Positions 6,087-51,851 of a DNA stretch of 56,086 bases are shown in pieces. Numbering within the stretch: the first letter of the stretch is position 1; each line of letters opens with the position of its first letter. The position numbers and the translations under genes were made by a program. This stretch comes from Deltaproteobacteria bacterium (GTDB lineage: Bacteria > Desulfobacterota > Desulfobulbia > Desulfobulbales > SURF-16). The stretch is taken from positions 1-56,086 of the forward strand of contig JAOZOY010000004.1 in NCBI GenBank assembly GCA_029933005.1. The letters run 5' to 3'. The notes under the pieces were generated by a model. The model was given only the letters and a program-made list of their open reading frames with translations. It was not told where the DNA came from and made no database searches.

Positions 6087-6488
6087 ATGAGCGGGATTGA
6101 GTGGATAGAGCAAAACGAAACGGAAGACACGGCTTATCTTCGGCATTTTTTTCGTCTTCCTGTTGATGAGTCGACAAAGATCAAAGTCAGTATCGACGGC
6201 CGGGAGTACCCGGTTGTCAATCTTGCCTATTCCGGCGTGGGGATCAGACTCCTGCAACGTGATGTTTTCACTGTTGATGATTTTCTCAGTCAGATCGAAC
6301 TCGAAATTGAGGACAAATGTCTATCTTCACGGGGCAGAGTTATTCATGTCTCCCTGGATGATGCCGAAAGCTGGCTGTGCGGTGTTGAGTTCGTTGAACT
6401 TGATAAAGAAGGCCAGGCGATTTTAAGAGATTATGTTGATCATTGTCGCGAAGCTTTATTTGCCGGTCGGGATTCTAAGATCCAATAG
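6087..6488 (+). CDS. PilZ-domain cyclic di-GMP-binding protein
   Basis: A 133-residue single-domain PilZ protein. The cyclic di-GMP signature is visible as RHFFR (R19-R23, the RxxxR motif) and, after a short spacer, NLAYSG (residues 45-50). That matches the second motif D/N-x-S-x-x-G except for Ala in place of Ser47. The remainder (beta-barrel strands, WLCGVEFVEL) fits the fold. It lies 233 bp downstream of the stator pair with a hairpin between, and has its own GAGG ribosome site (6074-6077). Context suggests a YcgR-like brake or a regulator of the stator or of the nearby pili; this link is inference. No second domain is present. Confidence 0.87.
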   Translation: MSGIEWIEQNETEDTAYLRHFFRLPVDESTKIKVSIDGREYPVVNLAYSGVGIRLLQRDVFTVDDFLSQIELEIEDKCLSSRGRVIHVSLDDAESWLCGVEFVELDKEGQAILRDYVDHCREALFAGRDSKIQ

Positions 6489-7845: not shown

Positions 7846-8421
7846 ATGCGACAGATAAATAAAAAAAATAACGCTAAGGCTAAAATGTTTGCTCAGGGAA
7901 AAGCTGGATTTTCCCTGGTTGAATTGATGGTTGTAATTGGCATTTTGGCCATTGTAGCGGCTATCGCGACACCAAATTTTATTTCTTGGAAGCCCAGATA
8001 TCATCTCAAGTCTGCTGCGAGAGATTTATTTTCCAATCTGCAGAGAGCACGATTGCAGGCTGTAAAGGAAAATATCCCTATTAGTGTGATGGTTGATAAT
8101 AGCGTAACTCCGGGATTTTATTATTTCGATATCGATGGGAATGGCGCCTACACTGCCGGGGAATTTCGGGTTATGTTCGCAAGCTATGGAAGTGGAGTTG
8201 ATTTTGGCACAGGCAATGCCACTAATAATTGGAATAATGCAAGTTGTACCCAGGCAACTGGTATAACATTTTCAAATCAAGGTACAGCTAACAACGGTAG
8301 TATTTATCTTGAAAATAAAAATAACGATATTTGTTATGCGGTGACTGTTCAAACATCTGGATCAGTCAAGTTGCGACAGTTTTCAGGAATAATCCCGTTT
8401 AGCGTAAATAACTGGAAGTGA
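7846..8421 (+). CDS. fimT: FimT/FimU-type minor pilin (GspH family)
   Basis: First gene of the minor-pilin operon. The 191-residue product has a 21-residue positively charged leader ending Gly21, then FSLVELMVVIGILAIVAAIATPNF with Glu at +5 of the mature protein, the prepilin peptidase signature and the hydrophobic N-terminal helix. The segment LKSAARDLFSNLQRARLQAVKEN is characteristic of FimT/FimU/GspH. The C-terminal globular part (DIDGNGAYTAGEF, paired cysteines) is variable. It would sit in the priming tip complex of a type IVa pilus with PilV, PilW, PilX and PilY1. Its TGA overlaps the start of pilW. A shorter start at the internal Met14 is possible. Confidence 0.88.
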   Translation: MRQINKKNNAKAKMFAQGKAGFSLVELMVVIGILAIVAAIATPNFISWKPRYHLKSAARDLFSNLQRARLQAVKENIPISVMVDNSVTPGFYYFDIDGNGAYTAGEFRVMFASYGSGVDFGTGNATNNWNNASCTQATGITFSNQGTANNGSIYLENKNNDICYAVTVQTSGSVKLRQFSGIIPFSVNNWK

Positions 8422-9095
8422 TGAAAATAGTGAATAACCAAAAAGGATTTACCCTTATTGAAGTAATGATCTCTCTGCTTATTTCAGGGATTGTCATGAT
8501 CTCAATTTATTCCGTATTTCAGTCTCAGCAAGATAGTTATGTTGCCCAGGATCAGGTTGCCGAAATGCAGCAGAATATTCGGGCCGGGGTGGATATGATG
8601 CTGCGAGAAATCAGGATGGCTGGATATGATCCTGATGATTTAGGTACTGCCGGAATTACTATTGCAACCCCTACTAGTGTTACATTTACCCTGGTTGCCG
8701 ATGATGATGGTGTGGATAATAATAGTGATGGCAAAATTGATGAGTCCGGAGAATTGAAGACAATTCAATATGATCTTTATGATGCTTATGGCGACGGTGA
8801 CACTGATCTTGGCAGGCAGATTGGCGCAACAGCAACAAGCAAGAGGCCATTGGCTGAGAATATTGATAATTTAGAATTTCGTTATCTGGATTCCAGCGGG
8901 AACCCAACAGCTGTTTTGAATAATATCAGAAGTATACAGCTATCAATTCTTGCCAGAGCCGACCGGCCGGATCGTAAGATATTGAATACGCTATCAAATA
9001 CAGCAAAATCAGGGGCCGTCTGGGGACCATACAACGATAACTTTCGCCGCCGTATTTCAACAACAACAGTCAAATGCCGTAATTTGGGATTATGA
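8421..9095 (+). CDS. pilW: PilW-type minor pilin
   Basis: Minor pilin of the type IVa tip complex. The ATG at 8421 overlaps the fimT stop (TGATG); an in-frame GTG three bases earlier is the alternative. The 9-residue leader MKIVNNQKG precedes FTLIEVMISLLISGIVMISIYSVF, giving Glu at +5. Downstream VAEMQQNIRAGVDMMLREIRMAGYDP is the typical PilW/GspJ amphipathic helix. Residues about 93-112 carry an acidic stretch (DDDGVDNNSDGKIDESGE) that closely resembles the Asp/Asn/Gly calcium-type repeats in PilV and PilY1 of the same operon. Length (224) is shorter than many PilW proteins. Overlaps pilV by 4 bp. Confidence 0.85.
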   Translation: MKIVNNQKGFTLIEVMISLLISGIVMISIYSVFQSQQDSYVAQDQVAEMQQNIRAGVDMMLREIRMAGYDPDDLGTAGITIATPTSVTFTLVADDDGVDNNSDGKIDESGELKTIQYDLYDAYGDGDTDLGRQIGATATSKRPLAENIDNLEFRYLDSSGNPTAVLNNIRSIQLSILARADRPDRKILNTLSNTAKSGAVWGPYNDNFRRRISTTTVKCRNLGL

Positions 9096-9658
9096 TGATA
9101 AACTTATACAGTATGCAGAACCAGTCGGGTTTTACCCTTTTGGAGGTATTAATTGCCGTGGCGATCCTGACTATCGGTATTTTGTCAGTCAACGCCATGC
9201 AGGTCACATCTATTAATGGCAATTCTTCAGCAAATAACATGACGAAATCTACTAATTTGGCGTCAGACTATTTGGAGAAGATGTTGAATATGCCATTTGA
9301 TTCCGGAACCAATGGGACAGATGATGATGGTGATGGTGCGACTGATGAACCTGATGAGAAGTTTGATGATGGGACAGGAGCAAATAACGGCAGCGCTGGA
9401 CTCGATGATAATGGGCTTGATGATGATAATGATGGTGCGATTGATGAAGCTGGTGAGCTTTTTGCGAACAGGTATAAACCGTTTGTTATAGGAAGTACTG
9501 ATGGTTTTGTCCCATCATCTGATGGCAAATATAATGTTTTCTGGAATGTTGCTGATAATTATCCTCAGAACAATATGAAAACCATAAGAGTATTTGTTCA
9601 AAATAATAGTGCGACAGTAAAAACGGTATCATTTACCAATTGCAAAATTAATTTTTAA
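9092..9658 (+). CDS. pilV: PilV-type minor pilin with acidic Ca-type repeats
   Basis: The 188-residue product has leader MMINLYSMQNQSG, then FTLLEVLIAVAILTIGILSVNAMQ with Glu at +5, and the PilV/GspI-like segment ATNLASDYLEKMLNMPF (here STNLASDYLEKML). Residues about 75-125 hold two acidic repeats, DDDGDGATDEPDE and DDDNDGAIDEAGE, of the same kind as those in PilW and PilY1. Starts at ATG 9092 within the pilW stop; a second ATG at 9095 is equally possible. Would take part in the priming complex at the pilus tip and help recruit PilY1. Confidence 0.85.
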   Translation: MMINLYSMQNQSGFTLLEVLIAVAILTIGILSVNAMQVTSINGNSSANNMTKSTNLASDYLEKMLNMPFDSGTNGTDDDGDGATDEPDEKFDDGTGANNGSAGLDDNGLDDDNDGAIDEAGELFANRYKPFVIGSTDGFVPSSDGKYNVFWNVADNYPQNNMKTIRVFVQNNSATVKTVSFTNCKINF

Positions 9659-9671
9659 AAATGGTGGCACC

Positions 9672-10181
9672 GTGCAAATTTTAAATACTGCAAACAATGA
9701 GAACGGCTTTGTTTTGGTTGCCTCATTAATGATTCTTATGATTTTAGTGGTGCTCGGTATTGCCGCTATCAACACAACTACAATTGAACAGCAGATTGCC
9801 GGAAACGAAAAAGTCGCCAAGGATAATTTTTACAATGCAGAAGCTGCTGCCCAGGAAGGAGCTCAGCGTTTGGAAAACGAGAATGATTCGGATAACCTCA
9901 GGGCTAAGCGTAGCAGTTTTAAATGGTTATTCAGTGGAACGGACGAGGATGGTTTCCTTGATGACCCTGCTGAGTGGCAGGCAATTATTAATGATTTGCT
10001 TTCCGGTTTGAATAATTCTGCTATATCATTAGTTGCTATAGACAAAGGAGTGGTCAAGGGTAAAAAGTCCTCGTCTCTGAAAATAACTTCCAGTTCTCTT
10101 TATGAGTATCATCTGCTCGGTCGAGCTACTAAAAATAATGGTCAGAAAATTATAGAAATTGGCTATAAAAAGAGGTTTTAA
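9672..10181 (+). CDS. pilX: PilX-type minor pilin
   Basis: The 169-residue product starts at GTG 9672, with leader MQILNTANNENG followed by FVLVASLMILMILVVLGIAAINTTTIEQQIAGNEK. The +5 residue is Ala rather than Glu, as is usual for PilX/GspK-like proteins that cap the tip. The conserved helix KDNFYNAEAAAQEGAQRLEN matches the PilX N-terminal domain. It lies 13 bp after pilV and 12 bp before pilY1, clearly in the same operon. The ribosome site GGTGG is weak and only a few bases from the GTG. Confidence 0.85.
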   Translation: MQILNTANNENGFVLVASLMILMILVVLGIAAINTTTIEQQIAGNEKVAKDNFYNAEAAAQEGAQRLENENDSDNLRAKRSSFKWLFSGTDEDGFLDDPAEWQAIINDLLSGLNNSAISLVAIDKGVVKGKKSSSLKITSSSLYEYHLLGRATKNNGQKIIEIGYKKRF

Positions 10182-10193: not shown

Positions 10194-13100
10194 ATGAAGA
10201 CCGCACAAAATAATTGTTTGTACGGGTATAAGGAAAAATGGGGTCAAAATTTTTTCAATTCCCCACTTATAGCCATTAGCCTTTGTTTCCTGTTTGTAGT
10301 CAATTCTTCGAGTTATGTTTACGCGGAAGAATTCAGTAATGATCCCATGGAAACTAAAATTCAGGCCGCTCCGGCTAATATCATGTTCGTTCTCGACAAT
10401 TCCGGCAGTATGGACTGGGAGTTTATGACTCCAGAAAATGATGGGGAATTTCACGATGAACGTTATGTTTTTGACATTTCAGACAATCAATATAGTGATA
10501 TATTAACCGGAAGTAAGCTTCTCGAATGGAAATCCCAGTGGGCTGGTTACAACAAAATTTATTATAATCCGGCGACAACCTATCATCCCTGGCCACGCTG
10601 GGAAGAGATGGACAGTACCAAGGCTGCTGACGGAACAACAATAAGTGCAGGCGGCACTTTACCTCCCCACGAGGCAGATATTAAAGAACCGAGATCCAAC
10701 CCAGTCGGCAATACTCCGACCTTAAGTATCCTTGATACATTTTATGCCAATGTACCGGTCAATAATTTTACTATTGTGGATGATGATGATGGCTCTCCGG
10801 CCTTTACCTCCACCGGAAGCTGGAATGAATCTATTATGACTCCTGAATGGAATGGTTACTCAAAGTACACAAGTACGGATGGGGACAGGGTAGTTTTCAC
10901 GCCGGATATACCGGAAACCGATGCTTATAATATCTATGCTTGGTGGAACTGTTTTGATGATCGAGATCGAAACGCGCTAGTCGAGATTGACGCCGACGAT
11001 GACGGCGTCATTGACGCCTCAGAGAGAAAAGATCAGCGTTCGACCAGCAATAACATCCCGGAAACTGGCGTGTGCGGCGAGTGGCTGCCTCTTTTTGGCG
11101 GCGTTAGTTTCGTGTTTTCCCAGGGACACCATGGCACGGTAACCATTATCAGGGATAGTCCGGATGGCAGTTCCACCGTTGCTGATGCCATTGCCTTTGT
11201 CGTGGCAGGAACAATCATGACGGAATCAGCCGTTGATATCAAAAATGCTCATTATTATATGGTTAATGATATAGATAATGATGGGGAGGCTGAGGCAGGT
11301 GAGGTCTATCTCGTTAATTTTATCTGGAATGATGCAGATTCCGACTCAGAAGTTGATGATGGAGAAATAAGCCGAAATTACTATCTGGTTTCTTTCAGCA
11401 GCAGCACAAGTAATCATGAAGTCGTGCAGTATCTGTTGCCTGTGAACTCTGACGTTGCAGACCAAGGCAATGATGATATTCCTGATACTATTCAACCAGT
11501 AAAGACTAATGAAGACGGTTCGAAATCCTATTTGACCGATATGGAAGATCTGCAGAATTTTGTCAACTGGTTTTCTTTTTACAGGCGGCGTGAGTTGACG
11601 GCCAAGGCTGCAATTGCAAGAACTATTGATGATCTTGAATGGGTTAATGTTGGTTATTATACACTGCACAGCACCGGCGGTGCCCGCCAGACTGTTTTGC
11701 CTGTCAAGGTAGATGCCACTAATGAAGTTATTGTAGATAACCAGGACAGTGGTTTTACAAAAAGCAGTTCATGGTATGAGTCTGGTTCCCAACCAGAATA
11801 TAATGGCAGTTCAGTCTATACCGGCAGTTCCGGAAAATGGGCAAAATGGACTCCAAATATTTCGGCAACAGGAATGTTCGAAGTTTTTGCCTGGTGGAAT
11901 TGTTATTATAATCGTGACCAAAAGGCAAAATTCACCATTAGTCACGCGGGCGGTACAACGGTAAAATATTTAAACCAGAGAGCATCTTCCAATCACACTG
12001 TAACAACCAAAAATGACTGTGAGGATGCCAGTGGTTCGGGTTGCTGCGGCTACTGGGTCAGTCTTGGTTCCTATACTTTTAACCAGGGAAATACCGGCTA
12101 TGTCCAGGTGGAACGTCATGCATCCAGCACCGGCAGTTCCACCGATGCGGATGCGGTTAAATTTGTAGGGGGTGGTTCTGTAAACGTCGATGAGACTGAT
12201 ACTCTGCTCGACACATTGTACTCCATTGATTCCAATGGCGGCACTCCGCTTCGTCAATCTTTGCGTGATGTGGGGCGCTACTTTGACCAGGATGACGGAT
12301 ATACCGGCAATCTTGGCACCTCACCGTATGAGAGTGAGGCTGATGGTGGCGCCTGTCAGCAGGCCTTTGCAATTGCCATGACAGATGGGTACTGGAATGG
12401 CAGCAGTCCCGGTGTTGGTCATCAGGATCAAGGCGAAGGCGCGCCCTATCAGGATAATGTCGCAGATACCTTGGCGGATGTGGCCTGGAAATTTTACGAT
12501 GCTGATCTGGCTGATAGTCTGCCCAATGATATGCCGACTAATAATTATGATAAAAATAAAACTCAGCACATGGTCACTTTTTCAGTATCATTCGGGTTAA
12601 GCGGCTTGATTGATACTAATGATATTGATGATGATGGCAGCGTTGATGATCCTGGATATGTAGATGACCCTTATTTTCTGAATCCTGACACCCCAACGCC
12701 GATCTGGCCTGATCCGACAAATAGTTGCTACTCCTGTCCAAAAAAAATAGATGATTTGTGGCATGCTTCTGTGAATGGCCGGGGCCGTTTCTTCCAGGCT
12801 GATGATCCTGACACACTTGTCTCTTCATTGAAGGAGTTGTTTAAGGATATCAGTTCAAGAACAGCGTCTGGCGCTTCGGTGTCTGTCAATGGTGATGAGT
12901 TGAGTACTGGACTGGTTTTATACCAGTCAAGTTACACGGCCGGGTTATGGACAGGTAATGTGACTGCGTACCCCATCGATCCCGTTTCCGGAGAAGTAAA
13001 AAAACAGGAAGATGATATCCTCTGGCAGGCCAGGGAGCAATTGCAGAATCAGGACTGGCAGTATGGACGTCGTATTATTACCTCTGACCTGAACGGTTCG

Positions 13101-15461
13101 GGCATCGCGTTTCGTTACTCCGCCGCCGGTTTGTCAACTACGCAGAAAGATTGTCTGGATAATAATGCTGATGTGGTTAGATATTTGCGCGGTAAAGAGA
13201 TAACCGGTTTCAGGAGTAGAACCAAGAAACTTGGCGATATTGTTCACTCCGCTCCTTTGTTAGTAAATTCAACTATTTATACCGGTGGGAATGACGGCAT
13301 GCTGCATGCCTTCAACGCCGATACTGGCGAAGAACGTTTTGCCTATGTTCCTCTTCATGTTTTCAGTTATCTGTATGACTTGACCAAAACTGATTACAGC
13401 CACCGTTTTTATGTAGATGCCACTCCTTATGCCAAGGAATTGGTATTTTTTGCTGGTGATTTTACTGATGACGGCCTGGATAATGATGGTGATGGCGTCA
13501 TTGATGAAGCCGATGAAGATTACTCGGATTCAGTTGATAATGACGGAGATGGCTCAACAGACGAGAAGTTTGAGAAGAAACAAATGACATTGTTGGTCGG
13601 CGCTTTGAAAAAGGGCGGTCGTGGCATTTATGCCCTTGATATCAGTTCAGCAGATACTGTTGATGAAAACACAACAGAGGCAAGTCTTGTCAACATGGTT
13701 AAATGGGAATATCCTCCAGCTCCTGCCGGCATGATATTTGAGTATGCCGGCGACCAGACCAGTGACGGCGTGGATAATGACGGCGATGGCGTAACTGATG
13801 AGGCTGATGAAGATTACAGTGACGGCTATGATAATGACGGAGACGGGGACACTGATGAGGAGGGTGAAAAATGGCTTAATTTCGGTGATGATGACATGGG
13901 ATATACTTTCAGCGATCCTTTTATAGTTCGGTCTTATAAATCTTTCAATGAAGCCTCAAGTTCTGATCATCCCTGGGTAGTCATTTTCGGTAACGGCTAT
14001 GAAAGTAGAAATGGTCATGCCGTCCTTTATATAGTTGATGCTCTGGATGGTACGTTAATAAGAAAAATTGATACCGGGGTTGGTGGCAATAATGGCTTAT
14101 CCACTCCAGCTATAGTCGATGTGGATAACGATGATCGGGCTGATTACGTTTATGCCGGGGATCTTTTGGGCAATATGTGGAAATTTGATATTACTGCCCA
14201 TGATCCGGATAACTGGGGCGTGGCGTATGGGACGGATATTGGGAATCCAACTGGGAAGCAACGTATTGATTATGTGGATACGGATGGAGGTATTCCGGCA
14301 AACCATGATGACCCTCGGCCTCTGTTCTCGGCAGCCGGCCAGCCGATTACATCAACGCCGGATGTTATGTATCACTGTGAATATGAAAAAAATGGATTTA
14401 TGATCATATTTGGAACAGGTAAGTTTCTTGGCGAGGATGACCGCTCTGATACAAGTCAGCAGACAATCTTCGGCATCTGGGATTTTGCCAATATGGTAGA
14501 TGCTGATTCCGATGGTCGGGATAATGATCATGATGGTGTCATTGATGAGGGTACTGACGGACTTGACAATGATAGTGATGGTCATGTTGATGAAGATGAT
14601 GAAGGAGAAGAAAAACTGGATTCCGGCGCTTATCTTGGAAGCTGGAGTAGAGCCACAAATACTATTGACAATCTCAACGGTGTTGAGCTGCTGGAACAGG
14701 CAGAAATTGACTGGCGTTATCTTAATGGCTCGTATCTGCGAACCTTAAGCGATTACAGTCCCCAGTGGTATTTACAATGTGCTGATGGAGTTGATAATGA
14801 TGGTGATGGCTATATTGATGATGAGGATGATGGGAACGATGGTCATGGTACTCCTGAAAAGTGTGTTCCTGTCTCACCTTCAGCATACTTCAGCGATGGT
14901 GAAGATAATGACGGTGACGGTGACGTAGATGAAACAGGGGAAAATATTGGTCATGCCGGCTGGTTTTTTGATCTGCCTTACATGGTAGATGCCAGTTCTG
15001 ATGGAATTGATAATGATGGTGACGGTGACACCGATGAAGCTGGTGAAGAAAAACGAGCCGGTGAACGGGTTATCAAGGATGTGCTCATCCGTGACGGCAG
15101 GGCGATTGTCATCACCTTTATACCTGAAGATTCTCCTTGTACTGGCGGCGGTTATTCCATTATTCATGAAATGGACGCCTGTGACGGCAGCAGGTTAAGC
15201 AGCCCGGTGTTTGATATTAATAATGATGGTGTGATCGACGATCGTGACTTGATTCCAATAATAGATGAATTTGGAAATACGATTTATGTACCGCCTACGG
15301 GCAAGATGTTTGATGGAATTTTGCATACTCCTGTTATTGTCGGTGATCCCGATGAAACGCGTAACAGGGAAATGAAGATTTTCAGTAGTTCCGCCGGGAC
15401 AACAGAAGTTGTATGGGAAAAAAAAGAGAAGGTCGGTTTTTATTACTGGCGGGAACATTAA
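10194..15461 (+). CDS. pilY1: PilY1-type pilus tip adhesin with extra Ca-type repeats and two CBD-like inserts
   Basis: Secreted tip protein of 1755 residues, larger than typical PilY1 (~1160 in Pseudomonas). A signal peptide (about 1-45) is followed by a VWA-like domain with MIDAS DNSGSM (residue ~68) that resumes at ~455 and ~680. Two segments, ~193-338 and ~510-659, resemble each other and the golvesin/Xly carbohydrate-binding-like domain (SGFTKSSSWYESG, WTPNI, FAWWNCY, YWVSLGSYTFN, DADAVKFV). They split the VWA domain. The C-terminal PilY1 beta-propeller begins near 1010 (KLGDIVHSAPLLV) and keeps the known PilY1 Ca site in VDVDNDDRADYVYAGD. Nine further DNDGDG-type acidic repeats (for example DNDGDGVIDEADED) lie between ~1092 and ~1620, mostly in pairs. 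Last large gene of the minor-pilin operon. Domain limits are estimates. Confidence 0.9.
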   Translation: MKTAQNNCLYGYKEKWGQNFFNSPLIAISLCFLFVVNSSSYVYAEEFSNDPMETKIQAAPANIMFVLDNSGSMDWEFMTPENDGEFHDERYVFDISDNQYSDILTGSKLLEWKSQWAGYNKIYYNPATTYHPWPRWEEMDSTKAADGTTISAGGTLPPHEADIKEPRSNPVGNTPTLSILDTFYANVPVNNFTIVDDDDGSPAFTSTGSWNESIMTPEWNGYSKYTSTDGDRVVFTPDIPETDAYNIYAWWNCFDDRDRNALVEIDADDDGVIDASERKDQRSTSNNIPETGVCGEWLPLFGGVSFVFSQGHHGTVTIIRDSPDGSSTVADAIAFVVAGTIMTESAVDIKNAHYYMVNDIDNDGEAEAGEVYLVNFIWNDADSDSEVDDGEISRNYYLVSFSSSTSNHEVVQYLLPVNSDVADQGNDDIPDTIQPVKTNEDGSKSYLTDMEDLQNFVNWFSFYRRRELTAKAAIARTIDDLEWVNVGYYTLHSTGGARQTVLPVKVDATNEVIVDNQDSGFTKSSSWYESGSQPEYNGSSVYTGSSGKWAKWTPNISATGMFEVFAWWNCYYNRDQKAKFTISHAGGTTVKYLNQRASSNHTVTTKNDCEDASGSGCCGYWVSLGSYTFNQGNTGYVQVERHASSTGSSTDADAVKFVGGGSVNVDETDTLLDTLYSIDSNGGTPLRQSLRDVGRYFDQDDGYTGNLGTSPYESEADGGACQQAFAIAMTDGYWNGSSPGVGHQDQGEGAPYQDNVADTLADVAWKFYDADLADSLPNDMPTNNYDKNKTQHMVTFSVSFGLSGLIDTNDIDDDGSVDDPGYVDDPYFLNPDTPTPIWPDPTNSCYSCPKKIDDLWHASVNGRGRFFQADDPDTLVSSLKELFKDISSRTASGASVSVNGDELSTGLVLYQSSYTAGLWTGNVTAYPIDPVSGEVKKQEDDILWQAREQLQNQDWQYGRRIITSDLNGSGIAFRYSAAGLSTTQKDCLDNNADVVRYLRGKEITGFRSRTKKLGDIVHSAPLLVNSTIYTGGNDGMLHAFNADTGEERFAYVPLHVFSYLYDLTKTDYSHRFYVDATPYAKELVFFAGDFTDDGLDNDGDGVIDEADEDYSDSVDNDGDGSTDEKFEKKQMTLLVGALKKGGRGIYALDISSADTVDENTTEASLVNMVKWEYPPAPAGMIFEYAGDQTSDGVDNDGDGVTDEADEDYSDGYDNDGDGDTDEEGEKWLNFGDDDMGYTFSDPFIVRSYKSFNEASSSDHPWVVIFGNGYESRNGHAVLYIVDALDGTLIRKIDTGVGGNNGLSTPAIVDVDNDDRADYVYAGDLLGNMWKFDITAHDPDNWGVAYGTDIGNPTGKQRIDYVDTDGGIPANHDDPRPLFSAAGQPITSTPDVMYHCEYEKNGFMIIFGTGKFLGEDDRSDTSQQTIFGIWDFANMVDADSDGRDNDHDGVIDEGTDGLDNDSDGHVDEDDEGEEKLDSGAYLGSWSRATNTIDNLNGVELLEQAEIDWRYLNGSYLRTLSDYSPQWYLQCADGVDNDGDGYIDDEDDGNDGHGTPEKCVPVSPSAYFSDGEDNDGDGDVDETGENIGHAGWFFDLPYMVDASSDGIDNDGDGDTDEAGEEKRAGERVIKDVLIRDGRAIVITFIPEDSPCTGGGYSIIHEMDACDGSRLSSPVFDINNDGVIDDRDLIPIIDEFGNTIYVPPTGKMFDGILHTPVIVGDPDETRNREMKIFSSSAGTTEVVWEKKEKVGFYYWREH

Positions 15462-22112: not shown

Positions 22113-23426
22113 ATGGCAAATTACGCAATTTTAATCGGGGTAAGCCACTACTATGATCAGCAGATCAAAGATCTGCCGCATTCTGTCCACTCCATAAAAC
22201 AGCTCTATAATACACTAATAGAAAAAGGGAGTTTTGAACCAACGAATATTCTTGTCCTAACTGAAAATGAGAATGGGCTCGATCCGTTAAGGATGCCTTT
22301 TAAATATACTGTTATCTCTACTTTGCTGAATATATATCGCAGATGGCCGATTAAAAAGGATGATTTCCTTCTTTTCTACTTCATGGGCCATGGTTACGGT
22401 TCAGTAAAAGGTGATCAGATTCTAACCATGGATACTTGCTTTCAATATCTTAGAGAGACAGCACTGTCCACAGGAGCACTAACCAAACTTATCAGACCGA
22501 TTCGGGCTCAGCGTAAATTACTAGTCTTTGATTCTTGCAGAAATGAAGTTGAAGGAACCCAAGGCACCCAGGAGGGGCTTGGCAAAAAGCGTATTGATGA
22601 ATTTATAACGCTCTATGCATGCATGCCGGGAGAACAGGCTTATATCCCTAGAAAAGACAAATTGCCGCTTCTTACCAGTGCATTTATTAAGGCCGTGAAA
22701 GACAGTAGATGTCTCAGCATACGTGATATGTATAATTTCGTATGCGATAGTGTTCAAGCCAAATCGTATGAGATTGCTGTCAGGCAGACGCCTGAACTCG
22801 CCGCGGGTGGAAAGGAATTGGGCAAAGTTGCTTTTTTATCAAGAATCCTTAGAACTGCAGCTGATGTAAATGTGGAAGCCGGCTTTGAAAATCAAATAAT
22901 CGAGGTAAACCAATCACTCCATTATCTCTATAAGGAGAAATATCCACATTATGCACCAAGTTACACACCATTTATGAACGCAGCTCGAAAATTGAAAGAC
23001 TGGCAACAGAAAATTGATCAGAGGGTGTTCAGAAAAGTTGCATTTTCTCTTCTGGAGAAAGGTGAAGACGCTGATATATACACTGTCTCCTATATGCTCC
23101 GATGGGGATCCGACGCCATCCTGTTCAAACCGTTAACAGAATGTTTGGCAAGTCGAAAATACAGGGGAACAGTGATCTGGCAGGCAATGGATGCTCTAGA
23201 GGTCATTTTACGAAATGAACAGACTTTAAAATGGTTGACCGTTGACGAACAACTCAAAGAAAGTCTTGTTACCTCATTGAGAAGAAGTGCTGAAGAACAC
23301 CCGACTAGAAAAGGTACCGCTTTTGCCTCCAGTGTAGTTTGGGGTAAAATTCTTCAGATTTGTAAACGCGTTGATTTACCTGCAAAAATAGTTTTTCCAA
23401 AACAGGCACTTGCCCAGTTGCGATAA
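22113..23426 (+). CDS. caspase-like (peptidase C14) protease
   Basis: A 437-residue cytoplasmic protein with an N-terminal caspase-hemoglobinase fold. YAILIGVSHY is strand 1 (residues 4-13), His93 in FYFMGHGYGS and Cys142 in LLVFDSCRNE form the catalytic dyad, and TLYACMPGEQAY follows. A p10-like region with LLTSAFIKAVK completes the domain by ~240. The remaining ~200 residues are helical and unrecognised, with no membrane segment or signal. A good ribosome site (AAAGGAG) precedes ATG 22113. Bacterial orthocaspases cleave after Arg/Lys and are linked to cell death or defence in some systems. It is the only intact gene in a stretch of decayed ones, so recent arrival or maintained selection is possible. 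Confidence 0.87.
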   Translation: MANYAILIGVSHYYDQQIKDLPHSVHSIKQLYNTLIEKGSFEPTNILVLTENENGLDPLRMPFKYTVISTLLNIYRRWPIKKDDFLLFYFMGHGYGSVKGDQILTMDTCFQYLRETALSTGALTKLIRPIRAQRKLLVFDSCRNEVEGTQGTQEGLGKKRIDEFITLYACMPGEQAYIPRKDKLPLLTSAFIKAVKDSRCLSIRDMYNFVCDSVQAKSYEIAVRQTPELAAGGKELGKVAFLSRILRTAADVNVEAGFENQIIEVNQSLHYLYKEKYPHYAPSYTPFMNAARKLKDWQQKIDQRVFRKVAFSLLEKGEDADIYTVSYMLRWGSDAILFKPLTECLASRKYRGTVIWQAMDALEVILRNEQTLKWLTVDEQLKESLVTSLRRSAEEHPTRKGTAFASSVVWGKILQICKRVDLPAKIVFPKQALAQLR

Positions 23427-40846: not shown

Positions 40847-42085
40847 TCATCCTCTGGCCACATTCATCATGTCCCACATGGGCATGAAGATGGCCAGGGC
40901 GATGAATCCCACCATAACTCCCATGAGGAGAAGTAGTATCGGTTCGATCAGAGTCGAGAGATTTTTGATGGTATAGTCTGTTTCTACCTCGTAATAGTCG
41001 GCCACCTTGCCCATCATGGTGTCAAGTTGGCCGGATTCTTCTCCCACCGTAACCATCTGGATCACCATTGCCGGAAAGAGGGAATGCTGTGACATGGCGT
41101 GATTTAGGTCGGTTCCCTTTTCAACTTCACGTCTTACCTCATCCAGCATTGAGACAAGAACCCGATTTTCCAGAGCTGCGGTTGAAAGTTCCAGGCTGCG
41201 GATGATGTTGATGCCGCTTTCAGTCAACACGGAAAAGACGCGGCAGAACCTTGACATGTAAATTTTAATCGATAGTTCGCCAAGAACCGGTATTTTCAGG
41301 TGGAGTCGATCCCGTGTCATGACAAAATCAGGATAATTGAGGCCAAAGTGATAGAGCAGGATCAGGCCGACTATGACGAGCAGAATAAGAAAAAAATGAT
41401 TGGAGAAAAAACCGCTGATGTTAATCAGGATCCAGGTCGGAAGAGGGAGTTCAACCCGGGAATTTTTAAAGAGAACGATGAATTTGGGAACCACAAAGGT
41501 CATCAGAAAAAAAACAGCGCAAGTTATAGCTCCAATCACTATTTTAGGGTAGCGGGTTGCCATTTTGATCCGTTCCCGGATACTTTTTTCATTTTCATAT
41601 AAAAGGGCAAGATAGTTAAAAGATCGATCCAGGTTTCCTGTTTCCTCACCGATGCGGACAATATTTCGGAAGAGGGGGCTGAAAACTTGCGGATATCGGC
41701 CAAATGATTCACTCAGACTGGCACCCTTCTCAATTTTGACGCTGATCTCTTTTAAGATCTCTTTTAAACGAGGCTGCTGGATCTGCATGGCGATCACGGT
41801 TAAAGATTGGAGCAGATTCACACCGGCCCTGATCAGGGTGGCAGTCTGCCGGCAAAAGAGAATAAGGTCGTCAAGCCGTACTTTTTTAAATTTGTCCAGC
41901 CAGACGGTTTTTCCGACCGGCCGGCTGCCGACTTTATCAGCCTGATCTGCGGAAATTTCAATTGAGATTGGACTCAAATGATTCTGCAGCAGCCATTCTT
42001 CCACCTCCGGAATGGATCTGGCAGAATGGGTTCCCGAGGTAATGACACCGGCCTGGTTCACGGCCTTGAAACGAAAAACAGGCAT
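40847..42085 (-). CDS. mshG: MSHA inner-membrane platform protein MshG (GspF/PilC family)
   Basis: Polytopic platform protein, 412 residues, with two repeated T2SSF domains: LDDLILFCRQTATLIRAGVN (start of the first) and SRFCRVFSVLTESGINIIRS (start of the second). Membrane segments are about 175-195, 220-245 and 380-402 (LIEPILLLLMGVMVGFIALA). It holds the assembly ATPase MshE at the cytoplasmic face. The MPVFRFKAVNQAG start is typical of the family. Start and mshE stop share one base. Last gene of the minus-strand msh operon. Confidence 0.93.
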   Translation of the reverse strand: MPVFRFKAVNQAGVITSGTHSARSIPEVEEWLLQNHLSPISIEISADQADKVGSRPVGKTVWLDKFKKVRLDDLILFCRQTATLIRAGVNLLQSLTVIAMQIQQPRLKEILKEISVKIEKGASLSESFGRYPQVFSPLFRNIVRIGEETGNLDRSFNYLALLYENEKSIRERIKMATRYPKIVIGAITCAVFFLMTFVVPKFIVLFKNSRVELPLPTWILINISGFFSNHFFLILLVIVGLILLYHFGLNYPDFVMTRDRLHLKIPVLGELSIKIYMSRFCRVFSVLTESGINIIRSLELSTAALENRVLVSMLDEVRREVEKGTDLNHAMSQHSLFPAMVIQMVTVGEESGQLDTMMGKVADYYEVETDYTIKNLSTLIEPILLLLMGVMVGFIALAIFMPMWDMMNVARG

Positions 42086-43731
42086 TACGACACCATGGTA
42101 TTCAGGGTAATGCGGAGAACTTCGTCCAGAGAAGTTATCCCGCTGATGACTTTTTTCAGGCCGGAATCACGCAGGGACATCATCCCTTCTTTACGGCCCT
42201 GACGATAAAGTTCATGGCTTGATCCCTTTTTCATGATCAGCGACTCGATTTCCGTTGAAATGGTTAAAACCTCATAGATAGCCAGCCGGCCTCGATAGCC
42301 GCTGAACTCGCATTTAGGACAGCCTGTCGGTCGGAAAAAAAATTGTTTTTCATTATGGTCAAGGCCGAGTTCCAGCATAACATTGTCCTCAGGCTGAAAA
42401 GATTCTCGGCATGAACAGAGTTTTCTGATCAACCTCTGGGCCAGAACCAGACCAACAGAAGAGGCGATGAGAAAGGGGGGGATGGACATGTCGATCAGAC
42501 GCGCCACCGCTCCGCTGGCATCGTTGGTATGGAGTGTCGACAGGACAAGATGGCCGGTCAATGCAGCCTGGATGGCAATTTCAGCCGTTTCCACATCACG
42601 AATTTCACCGATCATAACTACATCCGGATCTTGGCGCAGGATGGAGCGCAGGGCCGAGACAAAAGTCAGATTCGCCTTGGGGTTAACCTGGACCTGGTTG
42701 ATTCCTTTTAATTCATACTCGACTGGGTCTTCAACCGTGACAATATTTTTTTCAACGGAATTAATCTGATTCAGAGCTGCGTACAGAGTGGTTGTCTTGC
42801 CACTTCCGGTGGGGCCGGTGACCAGAATAATTTCATGGGGCTGCTTCAGATGATTTTCAAATATTTTCTGCTGTTCAGGCTCAAAGCCAAGATCATGAAG
42901 ACCTATTTTTACCTTTGATTTATCCAGAAGGCGCAAAACCACTTTTTCGCCATTGTTCAGGGGAAGAGTGGAGACGCGGATGTCAAACTCCCGACCCGAT
43001 ATCGGGATTTCAAAACGACCATCCTGAGGCTTGCGCCGTTCTCCGATATCAAGTTGAGACATGATTTTAATACGGGACACCAGACTTGGAAGCATCTCCA
43101 TGGGAAAATTACGCATATGTTTAAGCAAACCGTCAACCCGAATGCGGATTCGGACCTTTTCCGACCCCGGTTCAAGGTGGATATCACTGGCCTCTTCCCT
43201 GGCGGCCCTGAGCAGAATGTCGTTTATTATATTGACCGCTTCGGATTCATCATTTTCTATTTTATCCCCTGGAGCGAGCAGAGATTCATCTTGGGCGGGA
43301 TAGTATGTCTCAATCGCTGAAACGATTCCAGATTCCATCGCCACGCATATGACAATTTTGTCATGGATATGATGTCTCAGTTCGTCGAAGGCAAAGATAT
43401 TGAGGGGATCGGTAAAGGCAACCAGAACTTCCCCCGGCCGTCGGCCGATGGCGATGAGTTTGAATTTCCTCGCCAGGGTTTCCGGGATCAGCGGCACGAT
43501 CTGGGGATCAACCACGATACGCTTAAAATCGGCAAAGGGCAGGTCAAGCTGTTTGGCTAGAGTCTTGGCAACAGCACGGTCATTGACATAACCGAGTTCA
43601 AGCAGAGATTTTCCCAGCTTGATTTCTCTTTCCCGGCTGTAATTCAAGGCCTGCTGCAACTGAGTCTGGTTGATCAGCCCGCCTTCAACCAGGATGTCTC
43701 CGAAACGTTTTTTTGTTATGATTTCAGCCAT
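42085..43731 (-). CDS. mshE: MSHA assembly ATPase MshE with cyclic di-GMP-binding MshEN domain
   Basis: Hexameric pilus-extension ATPase of 548 residues. The N-terminal MshEN domain shows the two 24-residue cyclic di-GMP motifs, RFGDILVEGGLINQTQLQQA and KLGKSLLELGYVNDRAVAKT, separated by the 5-residue linker REREI. The catalytic core has Walker A GPTGSGKTTTLYA, the Asp box EDPVEYEL, Walker B DPDVVMIGEIRD and the His box TGHLVLSTLHTNDA. A zinc-binding tetracysteine region (CSCRE and CPKCEFSGYRG) follows. So MSHA extension is predicted to respond to cyclic di-GMP, as shown for Vibrio MshE. Overlaps mshG by one base; 71 bp with a TTGGTC microrepeat separates it from mshM. Confidence 0.95.
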   Translation of the reverse strand: MAEIITKKRFGDILVEGGLINQTQLQQALNYSREREIKLGKSLLELGYVNDRAVAKTLAKQLDLPFADFKRIVVDPQIVPLIPETLARKFKLIAIGRRPGEVLVAFTDPLNIFAFDELRHHIHDKIVICVAMESGIVSAIETYYPAQDESLLAPGDKIENDESEAVNIINDILLRAAREEASDIHLEPGSEKVRIRIRVDGLLKHMRNFPMEMLPSLVSRIKIMSQLDIGERRKPQDGRFEIPISGREFDIRVSTLPLNNGEKVVLRLLDKSKVKIGLHDLGFEPEQQKIFENHLKQPHEIILVTGPTGSGKTTTLYAALNQINSVEKNIVTVEDPVEYELKGINQVQVNPKANLTFVSALRSILRQDPDVVMIGEIRDVETAEIAIQAALTGHLVLSTLHTNDASGAVARLIDMSIPPFLIASSVGLVLAQRLIRKLCSCRESFQPEDNVMLELGLDHNEKQFFFRPTGCPKCEFSGYRGRLAIYEVLTISTEIESLIMKKGSSHELYRQGRKEGMMSLRDSGLKKVISGITSLDEVLRITLNTMVS

Positions 43732-43732
43732 G

Positions 43733-43790
43733 ATTGGTCTTGTTGGTCTTATTAGTCCTGTTGGTCAAGTTGGTCTCGTGGGTCTGCGTG
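43733..43790. repeat. degenerate TTGGTC(T)TG tandem microrepeat
   Basis: About six or seven imperfect units of TTGGTCTTG (TTGGTCTTGTTGGTCTTATT and onward) fill most of the 71-bp gap between mshE and mshM. Like the arrays at 1 and 31448 it sits exactly at a gene boundary and may arise by slippage. Confidence 0.7.
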
Positions 43791-43802
43791 GTTAGCTGGA
43801 AA

Positions 43803-44696
43803 TCATATCAGCATCATAATAAGGAAAAAAAACAATATTCCTCCGGTACTGTAGCTGAGCATCGGAAAAAAGTTTTTTTGTCTTTCAGGGATCATGCCGA
43901 GGGACTGGGCCGCGGTTTGAATTGATTTTTTGTCAAAAGAAAATTTTTTGTCGCTGTACATCACCAGCAGGGTGCGGCTCATAAGTTTGTTTATCAGCCT
44001 CGGCACACCGCCGGTGTAACGGTTTATCAGCCTGGTTAATTTTTTATCCAGGCGCAGATCGGTACGTTCGGCCGTGGTGAGACGGAAATGGATGTATTCT
44101 CCTACCTCCTTAACAGAGAGAGGGTGAAGTGTTTCCGTGATAGTGATGCGTTGTTTGAGCTGGCGCAGGCTAGTATGACTGATCTTGTCGGCAAGTTCCG
44201 GCTGGCCCACAAGAATAATCTGCAGCCATTTATATTTGTCGGTTTCAAAATTTGACAGAAGACGGAGCTGCTCAATACTTTTCGTGGGCAACCCCTGGGC
44301 CTCATCAATGATGACCACCAGTTTCTTCCCATCTTTTGCCAGGGTGAAAAGATGGTCGTTCAGGCTGTGGAGGAGCAGATCCAGAGAGGTACCGCCGTCA
44401 ATCTCATGCCCCACGTCACGCAGAATTGCCAGAACCAGTTCTTTAGGTGAAAGTTGTGGTGAGATGAGCATGGCTGTCTCATAATCCTTGAAAAGCCGTG
44501 TCGTGAGATAGCGGAGCAGCATGGTCTTGCCGGTACCCACTTCACCGGTCACCACGATAAACCCTTCTCCCTGTTCCAGTCCGTAGCGAATGACCGTGGC
44601 AATGGAGCATTGACCCGAGGATGGAAAGTAAAAATCCCGGTCAGGTGTCAGCCGAAAGGGCTCTTCCCTGAATCTGAAAAAATCAAGAAAGTTCAT
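43803..44696 (-). CDS. mshM: MSHA AAA-family ATPase MshM (ExeA-like)
   Basis: A 297-residue AAA ATPase of the ExeA/MshM group. Start MNFLDFFRFREEPFRLTPDR is typical. Walker A is TGEVGTGKTMLL, Walker B VVIIDEAQGLP, sensor QIILVGQPEL, then a winged-helix-like region RLINRYTGGVPRLINKL. A C-terminal membrane segment (MLSYSTGGILFFFLIMMLI) ends the protein without the periplasmic peptidoglycan-binding domain of ExeA. It likely helps the secretin MshL pass or assemble across the envelope. Overlaps the end of mshL by 4 bp. Confidence 0.9.
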   Translation of the reverse strand: MNFLDFFRFREEPFRLTPDRDFYFPSSGQCSIATVIRYGLEQGEGFIVVTGEVGTGKTMLLRYLTTRLFKDYETAMLISPQLSPKELVLAILRDVGHEIDGGTSLDLLLHSLNDHLFTLAKDGKKLVVIIDEAQGLPTKSIEQLRLLSNFETDKYKWLQIILVGQPELADKISHTSLRQLKQRITITETLHPLSVKEVGEYIHFRLTTAERTDLRLDKKLTRLINRYTGGVPRLINKLMSRTLLVMYSDKKFSFDKKSIQTAAQSLGMIPERQKNFFPMLSYSTGGILFFFLIMMLI

Positions 44697-46096
44697 TTTT
44701 CTGCCTCGTCGGGGATGTTGGAATCGTTTTTTCGCAGATTCAGGGGACGTTCATAGGAGGATGAAAATGAGTGAAGTCCTGTTTTTTCAGCTTCATACCG
44801 GAAATAGCTGTCAGCCTCCGTGCTGTATTGCCTTGCCCGGTTCATTGTAACGATGGTCGGGGTTAGAAAGATCATTAATTCATAATTGCCGCCTTTTTTG
44901 TCTCGGCTCTTAAAGAGCCAGCCCAGCAATGGAATATCCTTCAGTAGCGGAATGCCGCTGATTTGTTCCATGTTTTTGTTGCCCTTAATGCCGCCGATCA
45001 CCACGGTAACATTATTTTCCAGATAGAGGCTGGTTGTGATTTCCTGGCGGTTGATGAGCGGCTCTTCGCCCACTTTATTCGTTTCATCCACATTGTCATT
45101 GGTGACATTGACATCAAGGATGATTAGATCATTCTGCAGTATTTTTGGGGTGACCTTGAGGCTCAGATTGGCCTCCCGAAAGGAGGTGTTTATGTAGTCG
45201 CCCGACTGGGAGGTGTAGGGAACCTCCTGTCCCTGCTTGATTTCAGCCTCCTTGCCGTCAAGGACAAGAACACTGGGAGCAGATAGAATCTCCAGTTCAT
45301 TGTCTTCCTGCAGGGCCTGAATTTCATAGTTAAGGTTTATATTGTCCTTGATGATTCCCAGGGTAAGATTGGTCGTAGTGCCGGCAAGGGAGAGATCGGA
45401 GTTGAAGGTGACAGGGTTGGTTTTTTTGGCTAAAGCCTCTGCGTCGCGGGCGTTCATATAATTCCATTTAACGCCGAGCTGCTGTTTGGCTGCGTCTGAG
45501 ACGGCCACGATGCGTGCTTCGATGTGGAGCTGGGGAATGGGAGTATCCAGTTCCTTGATCATTTCGCTGATCAGTTGGATATTTTCTTGCCTGTCCCTGA
45601 TCAGCAGGCAGTTATTCCGGCTGGTGACGGTAATTGTCCCCAGTTCGCTTTTAAGCGGTAGAAGTTGATTAAGGTGCTGGTCAGCCTGGCCGAAGTCGGT
45701 GCAGATTTTCTCGGTTGTCAGATCCTTTTGTTCCTCCTTGAAATCCATTTCTTTTTGGACGGAAATAACGTTGTTTTTTTCACTGAAATGAAGTTTCTGG
45801 GTATCGATAATAAGCTGGAATACATCATGGAGGCTGACCTGTTCCATATCAAAGCTGATTGTGTTATCAATATTGTCAGCAACAAAAATGTTGATGCCGC
45901 TCTGGCGGCCCATGGCCCGCAGCAAGGTTGAAACCTTAATGTTCTCACAGCGCATGCTGGCCGGATATTCCCTGAGCCGGTCCACCAGGTCCGCCCTGGA
46001 GAAGGTCGGCAGGAGCAGTGACAGAAAGAGCAGGGCACACAGGGTTTTGGTCTGTTTGACTGAAAAGAGTCGTATTATTGGCTGGATGAATGTCAT
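44693..46096 (-). CDS. mshL: MSHA outer-membrane secretin MshL
   Basis: Secretin of 467 residues. A signal peptide (about 1-36, ending FSRADLV) precedes an STN domain (VSTLLRAMGRQSGINIFVAD), an N1-type domain (LLIRDRQENIQLISEMIKEL) and the C-terminal secretin barrel with EVPYTSQSGDY, LSLKVTPKIL, VVIGGIKGNKN, GIPLLKDIPLLGWLFKSRDK and LMIFLTPTIV. It forms the outer-membrane gate for the MSHA pilus. No lipobox is evident, so it may rely on a pilotin or on MshM/MshK. The start overlaps the mshK stop by 4 bp (ATGA). Confidence 0.94.
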   Translation of the reverse strand: MTFIQPIIRLFSVKQTKTLCALLFLSLLLPTFSRADLVDRLREYPASMRCENIKVSTLLRAMGRQSGINIFVADNIDNTISFDMEQVSLHDVFQLIIDTQKLHFSEKNNVISVQKEMDFKEEQKDLTTEKICTDFGQADQHLNQLLPLKSELGTITVTSRNNCLLIRDRQENIQLISEMIKELDTPIPQLHIEARIVAVSDAAKQQLGVKWNYMNARDAEALAKKTNPVTFNSDLSLAGTTTNLTLGIIKDNINLNYEIQALQEDNELEILSAPSVLVLDGKEAEIKQGQEVPYTSQSGDYINTSFREANLSLKVTPKILQNDLIILDVNVTNDNVDETNKVGEEPLINRQEITTSLYLENNVTVVIGGIKGNKNMEQISGIPLLKDIPLLGWLFKSRDKKGGNYELMIFLTPTIVTMNRARQYSTEADSYFRYEAEKTGLHSFSSSYERPLNLRKNDSNIPDEAEK

Positions 46097-46548
46097 TGAT
46101 TTGTCCTGTGGGTTGCCGGACGGTTCCTCATGTCTCCACCGTCAATGACAAGGGGAGAGAGGAAGAGGGTATGAAAAACACCATCATGTTCAAGAAGAAT
46201 TTCCTTTTTGTGGATTTCAATCACCCTGGCATCCTGAATCCGATCGCCGGCAGTGACTATTCGATTATTAATGACTGCAAACGGGTTTTTCCTGTGCCAA
46301 ATGATCCCCTGAAGAGCAAGTCCGGCAAAATAATCGATTTTTTTCTCCTGGATCTGTTTAAAGTTATTGATCTGTTTTTCGCTCCAGTTAAAGGGGTTGC
46401 GCTTCGGCCCGGGCTGAGCAGCCATTGCTGTAATGATTTTTTCCGGACGGATACGCAGGACAACAGGCAGATCGTCCGTAGCGTCGGCGGCCCACGCTAT
46501 GGTTATCTGAAAGATCAGGATTGCGATGAATATCAGTTTAGGAGACAT
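46093..46548 (-). CDS. mshK: MshK-like periplasmic biogenesis protein
   Basis: A 151-residue exported protein with signal peptide MSPKLIFIAILIFQITIAWA. It has a GspC/PilP-like beta domain: LALQGIIWHRKNPFAVINNR and IVTAGDRIQDARVIEIHKKE fit the 'L.G...-.P.A.I....V..G..I....V..I....V' pattern. It would link the inner-membrane proteins (MshJ and PilN-like) to the secretin. Translationally coupled to mshL. Identification rests on position between mshJ and mshL and on this pattern. Confidence 0.82.
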   Translation of the reverse strand: MSPKLIFIAILIFQITIAWAADATDDLPVVLRIRPEKIITAMAAQPGPKRNPFNWSEKQINNFKQIQEKKIDYFAGLALQGIIWHRKNPFAVINNRIVTAGDRIQDARVIEIHKKEILLEHDGVFHTLFLSPLVIDGGDMRNRPATHRTNQ

Positions 46549-46638
46549 AGCTTTTTAATGAAGAATGCCAAGAGGATAAAGAATGAAGAGAAGGTACGGA
46601 ATGAGTCATTCGTACATGTTTCTATCTTCTCTACTTCT
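46549..46638. other. 90-bp gap within the msh operon with a small palindrome
   Basis: GTACGGAATGA-G-TCATTCGTAC (46594-46614) forms a near-perfect inverted repeat that could be a protein-binding site or mRNA hairpin between mshJ and mshK. It has no U-run, so it is not an obvious terminator. Confidence 0.4.
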
Positions 46639-47325
46639 TTATTTTTTTACTTCCTCTACTTTCTTTGTTTTCAGCGTCATCCGGCTGACAACAATACTGA
46701 AATGGATCGGAGCGACCTGAAAAGGTTCCGCGTCAGCCGGCCTTTCAATCGTCAATTCAGTTATCAAACCGACCTCCGGTTGATTTTCAAGATATTGTAG
46801 ATAATTGAACAATTTCAAAAAAGAACCCTTCCCCTCAATTGTCGTCGGATAAAGCATGAAGCCGTCCTTGCTTCTTTTTTCCTGCAGGCTTACTTGTGCC
46901 AGTGAATTTTCAATATTGACCGGCGCGTCCGTGTTAAGTGTGAATATGATCCTGTTAAAACGATCGCTGTCACCCTTTGTCAGCCAGTTTTCATGCAGCA
47001 GCGTCCTTTTCAGGAGTAAAATATCAATTTTATCGGCCAGATCACGGTTCTCCTGTGTTAACTGTTTTTCTCTTGCCGCCATCATACGGTTCATTTCATC
47101 AGGTATGGAACCTGCTAATTCTTGGAACTGGAGGATCTTCTGCTGCAACAGTTTTTCTTTTGGTTCGATTAAGAGGGTAACACCGGCCCACAGCAGCGTG
47201 ACACAGGCCAAAAATACTAAAAAAAACTGCCTGGCCTGGATGAGCGCCTCGGGATCATTTCGTAGCAGGAAATAGACCTGTTTCACTTTCGGTATGAATA
47301 GATCGTTCAACTTCTGCAAATTCAT
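46639..47325 (-). CDS. mshJ: MshJ (PilO/GspM-like) inner-membrane protein
   Basis: A 228-residue bitopic protein. A short cytoplasmic N-terminus and one membrane segment (about residues 30-50, FFLVFLACVTLLWAGVTLLI) are followed by a coiled coil (LLQQKILQFQELAGSIPDEM). The C-terminal ferredoxin-like domain (VQVSLQEKRSKDGFMLYPTT region, GSFLKLFNYLQYLENQPEVG) is shared with PilO/GspM. It forms the alignment complex with the PilN-like and MshI proteins. Overlaps the upstream PilN-like gene by 4 bp. Confidence 0.86.
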   Translation of the reverse strand: MNLQKLNDLFIPKVKQVYFLLRNDPEALIQARQFFLVFLACVTLLWAGVTLLIEPKEKLLQQKILQFQELAGSIPDEMNRMMAAREKQLTQENRDLADKIDILLLKRTLLHENWLTKGDSDRFNRIIFTLNTDAPVNIENSLAQVSLQEKRSKDGFMLYPTTIEGKGSFLKLFNYLQYLENQPEVGLITELTIERPADAEPFQVAPIHFSIVVSRMTLKTKKVEEVKK

Positions 47326-47879
47326 TGTAAGTCAAAGGCAATGTCGAAAGTAAAGGGCTCAGGAGCATTTCCTTCAACCCGGTCAAGATCCTGTAATTCA
47401 ATATGTCGAAAAAGAGGATCTTTTTTCAATGTACGCACCAGCAGGGGAAGATCCTTGTAACGCAGTGCGGAACCATGGATTATCCCGGATTTTTCCATAA
47501 AACTCATTCTGCTGCATTTTACTGATTGCGGCAGAGAAGAGGAAATACTGCTCAGAATTTTGGAATACGATATTTTTTCAAGGCCCATATTTTCCAGACC
47601 ACTCACCTGGTTCAGGATTTCCGTATATTCCTTTTTTTTGCTGATGTTTACACTGTTCAGACTGCTAACCCGTTCCTGCAGCTTTTCACTTTCAGCGACC
47701 CGTTGCAGCATGGATTCAATTTCCGAATCGTTTTTTTTTACCTGATAGTTGAGATATTGAATCCGGCTAAAAAGAAAAACACAAATGACTGCGATAAAGA
47801 CTCCCAGAATCACAGGTGTCTTCTTTTTTATCTTTTCCGCCAGGGGAATTTGCGGAACCAGATTGAGCCGTTTCAGCAT
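47322..47879 (-). CDS. PilN-like inner-membrane protein of the MSHA system (MshI2)
   Basis: A 185-residue bitopic protein that starts MLKRLNLVPQIPLAEKIKKK, the typical PilN N-terminus (NLLP/NLVP) that binds the PilM-like actin-fold partner. The membrane segment (PVILGVFIAVICVFLFSRI) is followed by a coiled coil and a small ferredoxin-like domain. I chose ATG 47879, directly after the mshI stop (TAAGATG on the minus strand), instead of the longer start at 47912, because NLVP starts there. In Vibrio the corresponding function is the second MshI-type gene. Overlaps mshJ by 4 bp. Confidence 0.84.
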   Translation of the reverse strand: MLKRLNLVPQIPLAEKIKKKTPVILGVFIAVICVFLFSRIQYLNYQVKKNDSEIESMLQRVAESEKLQERVSSLNSVNISKKKEYTEILNQVSGLENMGLEKISYSKILSSISSSLPQSVKCSRMSFMEKSGIIHGSALRYKDLPLLVRTLKKDPLFRHIELQDLDRVEGNAPEPFTFDIAFDLQ

Positions 47880-47880
47880 C

Positions 47881-48996: not shown

Positions 48997-49038
48997 AAGA
49001 GATATCTATTAAATCAGGCTGTTTGGTTATTTTTTATA

Positions 49039-49133
49039 TGAAAGTCTCTGTGAGAGATTAACATTCATTTCTTGATGTCTCATTGATTCGCTTATCTGTT
49101 GTGTCGGTTCGCCGGGATGGCCGTTATTGTTCC
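49039..49133 (-). repeat. AGAGACACGGAG interspersed repeat, copy 2 (inverted)
   Basis: The reverse complement reads AATAACGGCCATCCCGGCGA through GATAAGCGAATCAATGAGAC and TTAATCTCTCACAGAGACTT, nearly the same as 29298-29385. It overlaps the final codon of the mshN-like gene, so the repeat supplies its stop. Confidence 0.85.
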
Positions 49134-49744: not shown

Positions 49745-49913
49745 GGTTTTTAGCGCCTTACTCCTGAAAGTCTGTCATAAAAAAATAATAAACTGGAAGT
49801 AGCTTTTGAGACAAGGATGAGCGCCCACGACAAGGCACTTACACCTGCCAAGCGACTACTGAAAAGAGTTCTGAAAAATGTGATGTTTTTTCCGCTTTAG
49901 TGGGGTTAGAAAT

Positions 49914-50513: not shown

Positions 50514-50606
50514 GGGAGATGCCTTTTATGATTTATTATCGAATATCAAATGGTTGTAAAATTATGGTATGAAATTTTCCGGCCTGTTGTCCAGCAAAAA
50601 ATAACA

Positions 50607-51738: not shown

Positions 51739-51765
51739 GTTTTAATAAGACTTTTGCCGAGCAGT

Positions 51766-51826
51766 AGAGACACAGAGAAAAAAACAAAAAATTTTGTGCC
51801 TCTGCGAACTCTGAGAGAAAAAATCA
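51766..51826. repeat. AGAGACACAGAG repeat, partial copy 3
   Basis: AGAGACACAGAG and TTGTGCCTCTGCGAACTCTG here match the distal part of the copy at 29298-29440. It fills the mshD-mshO gap. Confidence 0.65.
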
Positions 51827-51851
51827 TATATTTTTATGCCAGATTTTGGCT

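Follow-up and report, generated by a model that had tools for sequence, protein, structure and literature searches.

PilY1 is the adhesin and mechanosensor of the type IV pilus tip, and its one calcium site has known effects on stability and function. In the crystal structure of the Pseudomonas aeruginosa protein (3HX6) the propeller carries this one site. With calcium present, P. aeruginosa PilY1 needs more force to unfold its later intermediates and less to unfold the first two (PMC11891296), and the stability of M. xanthus PilY1.1 requires calcium binding (PMC8833165). Myxobacterial and plant-pathogen PilY1s are described as containing none, one or combinations of the types designated calcium motifs 1–3, and repeat arrays are not mentioned for them (PMC13190605 and works it cites).

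The PilY1 described here adds nine putative sites to the one seen in 3HX6. It is encoded in a 56,086-nucleotide contig from a Desulfobulbales genome (JAOZOY010000004.1), analyzed at full length and referred to below as the window; genome-wide counts were taken from the 3.07 Mb draft assembly of 164 contigs. Both the protein, a PilY1, and the type of loop it carries are known. Text searches of open papers, a body that excludes most subscription journals, yielded no account of repeats of this kind in PilY1 and no role for them.

Tip operon and identity of PilY1

The PilY1 gene (10194–15461, plus strand) encodes 1755 amino acids comprising a VWA-type N-terminus, Golvesin_C stretches and a C-terminal PilY1 beta-propeller. 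Directly upstream, and also on the plus strand, are genes for a FimU/GspH-like minor pilin (7846–8421), PilW (8418–9095), PilV (9092–9658) and PilX (9672–10181). An earlier annotation made from the letters of the DNA (hereafter the sequence-only reading) had named the protein a PilY1 with a propeller, and this identification is borne out. The protein matches PF05567 with 136 bits against a gathering score of 28.1 (E = 2e-39) and the sequence of 3HX6 with E = 3.5e-43, and a Foldseek search using the predicted fold returned 3hx6 (E = 5e-29, TM 0.73 by target length). The propeller fold, the 1-3-5-7-9 calcium site, the VWA-type N-terminus and the position after FimU-PilW-PilV-PilX are all shared with PilY1/PilC proteins (PF05567, 3HX6). 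As the sequence-only reading also held, the conserved propeller calcium site, D-x-[DN]-x-D-x-x-x-D, has been kept: it reads DVDNDDRAD at residue 1309 (14118–14144, plus strand) and aligns with D851–D859 of P. aeruginosa PilY1.

The Golvesin_C domains are a difference from the 3HX6 system. Matches to this family (PF25275) fall in the N-terminal half of the protein, the best stretch being residues 512–602, and a further Golvesin-like fragment is found elsewhere (G000:C151). The sequence DNSGS at residue 68 is a VWA MIDAS-type site. A PilZ-domain protein is encoded upstream of the operon (6087–6485), and about 1.3 kb without a long open reading frame separates its gene from that of the FimU-like pilin. 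The nearest relative at the tip locus is L031 (matched also as G010).

Positions and statistics of the motif copies

The motif consensus is D-G-x-D-N-D-x-D-G-x-[IVT]-D-E-x-x-[ED]. Nucleotide coordinates below take the Asp at position −2 as the start of a motif, slot numbers give the residue at loop position 1, and all copies lie on the plus strand. Nine motifs, all in frame, are present in the PilY1 open reading frame, as the sequence-only reading had reported; their measured starts differ by 2–12 nt from its approximate positions. That reading had placed most copies in tandem pairs. Pairing applies to two strict 19-residue tandems, pair A (slots 1096 and 1115; 13470–13517 and 13527–13574) and pair B (slots 1194 and 1213; 13764–13811 and 13821–13868), and to one overlapping pair 15 residues apart (slots 1443 and 1458; 14511–14558 and 14556–14603) in which one Asp is common to both motifs and position 4 of the first is His. 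The remaining copies, at slots 1534 (14784–14831), 1571 (14895–14942) and 1606 (15000–15047), are single. D1, [DN]3, D5, G6 and an acidic residue at position 9 are present in all nine.

The motif is also found in two of the neighboring pilins, in three copies that the sequence-only reading had overlooked. PilW has a single copy (8706–8753) inserted at the turn between FTLV and LKTIQYDL, and PilV has two (9311–9358 and 9410–9457) in the loop joining helix alpha1 to the beta-sheet. PilX lacks the motif, and the FimU-like pilin contains one EF-like DIDGNGAYTAGE loop (8128–8163) that is not of the extended type. The array had been presented as a trait of this PilY1 alone, a framing that must be given up in view of the PilW and PilV copies and of the eight-member PilY1 clade described below.

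The strict pattern D[DN]D.DG..D[DE] is matched nine times in PilY1, compared with an expectation of 0.0025 from whole-protein shuffles, 0.004 from shuffles of the C-terminal part and 0.02 when the acidic inserts alone were shuffled. With a looser pattern, 14 matches were obtained in the whole 3.07 Mb genome, 12 of them in the tip operon (PilW, PilV and PilY1), and the reversed-pattern control gave none. The shuffles and the genome-wide reversed control rule out chance or composition as the source of the motif. The genome of the relative G010 has seven strict sites, all on one contig stretch, in open reading frames for PilV and PilY1. A tandem array at the DNA level was likewise rejected: Tandem Repeats Finder reported just a 17-base fragment in the motif region, and the copies are synonymously diverged.

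Relation to known calcium loops and repeat families

The motif core has the same ligand spacing as the crystallographic PilY1 calcium site and the Dx[DN]xDG loops of other folds (PMC3123361). Placement at blade edges is shared with the “calcium blades” of the same report. Beyond such loops, the motif adds D−2, N2, E10 and an acidic residue at position 13, and it occurs in many insert copies, some of them paired. A canonical EF-hand has a 12-residue loop ending in E12 between two helices; here, G or D predominates at position 12 and the acidic residue comes at 13. No helices flanking the inserts were predicted by AF2, at low confidence. The last ligand is thus uncertain, because the conserved acid is at 13 and not at 12 as in the EF-hand.

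No named repeat family scored above its cut-off. The DGxDNDxDGxxDE core is common to PF11617 (Cu-binding_MopE), for which the inserts score 11.4–15.8 bits against a cut-off of 27. NF033662, the acidic double-disulfide repeat of NCBIfam, has a like acidic core; pair B scores 36.9 bits and the whole protein 19.9, against a cut-off of 41. Thrombospondin type 3 repeats (TSP_3) were not among the matches up to E = 10 in a Pfam search of the inserts, and a sequence search of the PDB with a motif pair gave just weak matches to centrin and calmodulin, with E values of 0.025 or worse.

That PF11617 and NF033662 are the nearest named models raises the possibility that the loops bind a mineral surface or another metal, for example copper (the metal of MopE), some transition metal or calcium carbonate, and so make the tip a mineral or metal adhesin. 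We consider this very unlikely. The motif copies contain neither the Cys of PF11617 nor the disulfide Cys of NF033662, the all-oxygen ligands favor calcium, and the MopE copper site, which is built from two His residues plus a kynurenine (PMC3423442), is unlike the motif.

Placement in the propeller and spread among relatives

By alignment with 3HX6, the insertions carrying the motifs come after residues 1088, 1152 and 1434 of the query and are flanked by propeller segments that are conserved; the alignment-derived positions in 3HX6 are between residues ∼742–745, 766–782 and 970–1038. In the AF2 model, the inserts separate confident beta-strands.

In an alignment of 37 related PilY1 sequences, motifs occupy ten slots (1025, 1096, 1115, 1194, 1213, 1443, 1458, 1534, 1571 and 1606, in the numbering of the window protein). 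These are homologous turn positions, and the eight PilY1s that make up one Desulfobulbales clade fill them in differing combinations. Among relatives, five are motif-free (L137, L138, L032, L141 and L146); in these, the segments corresponding to slots 1096–1115, 1194–1213 and 1443–1458 are 2–10 residues long, compared with 49, 56 and 45 residues here, and the C-terminal slot segments are 4–22 residues compared with 20–36. Motif counts are nine for this PilY1 and for L184, seven for L188, six for L031 (by regex) and L186, five for L185, four for L187 and two for L201. The L185 PilY1 is divided between two open frames (1433 and 227 amino acids), which may stem from a frameshift, an assembly error or a broken gene. 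When the inserts were left out of tree building, every PilY1 with at least four motifs fell, together with L201, into one eight-row clade (support 99/95). Another clade, which consists of very long PilY1s (L189–L195 and L135, with open frames of about 2.6–2.9 thousand amino acids), mostly has slot 1606 alone. Motif-bearing PilY1s of relatives thus rule out uniqueness to this genome. The sequence-only reading had called for a comparison with the PilY1s of relatives, which places the repeats at homologous positions in one clade of eight; they are not common to all PilY1s of the lineage. Calcium-motif content varies among these PilY1s, as it does among the myxobacterial and plant-pathogen proteins (PMC13190605). 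PilY1 clade members with 0, 1, 2, 4, 6 and 9 loops amount to a natural experiment on calcium at the pilus tip.

A search of 258 genomes of the order with the extended pattern gave 89 sites; by a count of the listed matches, 51 are without Cys at position 4 and 38 have it. The Cys-less sites are concentrated in type IV pilus tip proteins, 48 of the 51 being in PilY1 or minor pilins; the other three are in an Asp-rich low-complexity frame (G058), an 888-residue frame (G029) and a partial unclassified frame (G580). A second tally, 52 of 56, was set aside as an estimate because it owes something to loci retrieved for their PilY1. Cys-bearing versions of the PF11617-like core occur in other proteins of related genomes; for all 12 Cys-type sites whose open reading frame was read, the protein was neither PilY1 nor a minor pilin. 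The 16-residue consensus can be used to flag tip proteins in unannotated genomes of the order. Note that the relation between PilY1 motif number and motifs in the adjacent pilins (Fisher p = 0.024) reflects one phylogenetically independent contrast, and no association is claimed.

A PilW-like pilin of another lineage (L036, 6000–6848) has several tandem DxNxDG-type loops, which suggests that calcium-type loops were gained independently in this tip pilin.

Constraint and codon history

Constraint was assessed by comparing this PilY1 with that of L031 (82% identical; 1744 aligned residues with 327 amino-acid differences). At positions −2, 1, 2, 3, 5, 9 and 13 of the nine motifs, none of the 63 codons carries an amino-acid change and 14 carry synonymous ones, whereas at positions −1, 0, 4, 7, 8, 11, 12 and 14 there are 31 amino-acid changes in 72 codons. 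Two L031 copies have Ser in place of G6, and position 10 changed once. The presumed ligand positions are under strong constraint, that is, purifying selection. A profile of 61 copies, which derive from related PilY1s and hence are not independent, has D−2 in 57, [IVT]8 in 58 and an acidic residue at 13 in 55, none of which was demanded by the search regex.

These values bear on the possibility that the inserts are acidic low-complexity spacers, disordered charged loops in which length and charge matter and metal ligation does not. The inserts are indeed 32–48% acidic, and AF2 assigns them low confidence: most propeller inserts have pLDDT values of about 28–47 (7 aligned sequences), and the PilV insert 33–48 (6 aligned sequences). 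A charge spacer, however, needs no such register as that of D−2, [IVT]8 and acidic 13 over the 61 copies, and the presumed ligand positions are invariant between this protein and L031 while their neighbors change, so that we regard this reading as quite unlikely.

The sequence-only reading had noted varied synonymous codons among the repeats, in agreement with the counts: where copies have identical residues, 385 codons are shared and 352.5 are expected from usage, a slight excess. Of 36 residues, 29 are the same in pairs A and B, the linker EADEDYSD among them, and 16 of the codons compared between the pairs are identical, against 14.8 expected. Because codon sharing is near the random level, the PilY1 copies are old. 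The two PilV copies, with 12 of 12 identical-residue codons shared versus 6.4 expected, look recently duplicated. If the motif were chiefly a DNA module that spread by recombination or slippage and brought the cell little benefit, the likeness of pairs A and B and the PilV duplication would be accounted for. The age of the PilY1 pairs and the purifying selection on presumed ligand residues speak against such a module, and we hold it to be most improbable. Since two neighboring tip proteins and some relatives carry the loop, the array is real, selected and specific to the lineage, an elaboration of a protein type already known.

Proposed function

We propose, with a probability of about 0.6, that the motifs are Dx[DN]xDG-type calcium loops, inserted at blade-edge turns in PilY1 and at a turn or loop in the two pilins PilW and PilV, and that they persist chiefly as structural clamps. 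Judged from sequence likeness, the core D1-N2-D3-x4-D5-G6-x7-x8-D9 would bind one Ca2+ in the manner of P. aeruginosa PilY1, residues 1, 3, 5 and 9 contributing their side chains and residue 7 its carbonyl, and the conserved D−2, E10 and acidic 13 may help to close the site. Loops of about 20–60 residues stand in place of turns of 2–22 residues, and bound calcium would give them order and stiffness. The tip complex could then offer long ordered loops for adhesion and would be less subject to unfolding and proteolysis during retraction. We infer calcium binding, loop order and a mechanical role for the inserts from these likenesses. The low pLDDT of the inserts, obtained from the 7- and 6-sequence alignments, does not support ordered loops, and the G6 to Ser replacements and the differing slot occupancy also count against clamps. 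No single extra site looks essential, because occupancy varies between relatives.

In an alternative that we regard as unlikely, low-affinity sites would act jointly as a calcium switch, altering tip stiffness, adhesion or retraction with external calcium; this is the calcium-responsive tip of the sequence-only reading. An extension/retraction switch has been proposed for the site in P. aeruginosa PilY1 (PMC13190605), and many alike sites could yield a graded response. Affinity or cooperativity, however, is not indicated by the sequence, slot occupancy differs among relatives, and the sites would stay permanently filled if calcium in the habitat is millimolar. Permanently filled structural sites fit the data as well as or better than a switch. 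A further reading, which we put forward as speculation and consider rather unlikely, is that the entire tip complex (PilY1, PilV and PilW) of some Desulfobulbales acquired a Cys-less calcium-loop module, near-restricted to tip proteins, that would make assembly or adhesion cooperatively dependent on at least 10 calcium ions.

Other features of the window

A second pilus-type (MSHA-like) cluster (40847–56009, minus strand) encodes an MshEN ATPase, a secretin, N-methyl pilins and a DUF6701 plus laminin-G protein; the motif does not occur in it. A caspase-like Peptidase_C14 protein is encoded at 22113–23426. At the contig start (nt 1–55), the heptamer CCATCAG is repeated in 7.9 perfect copies.
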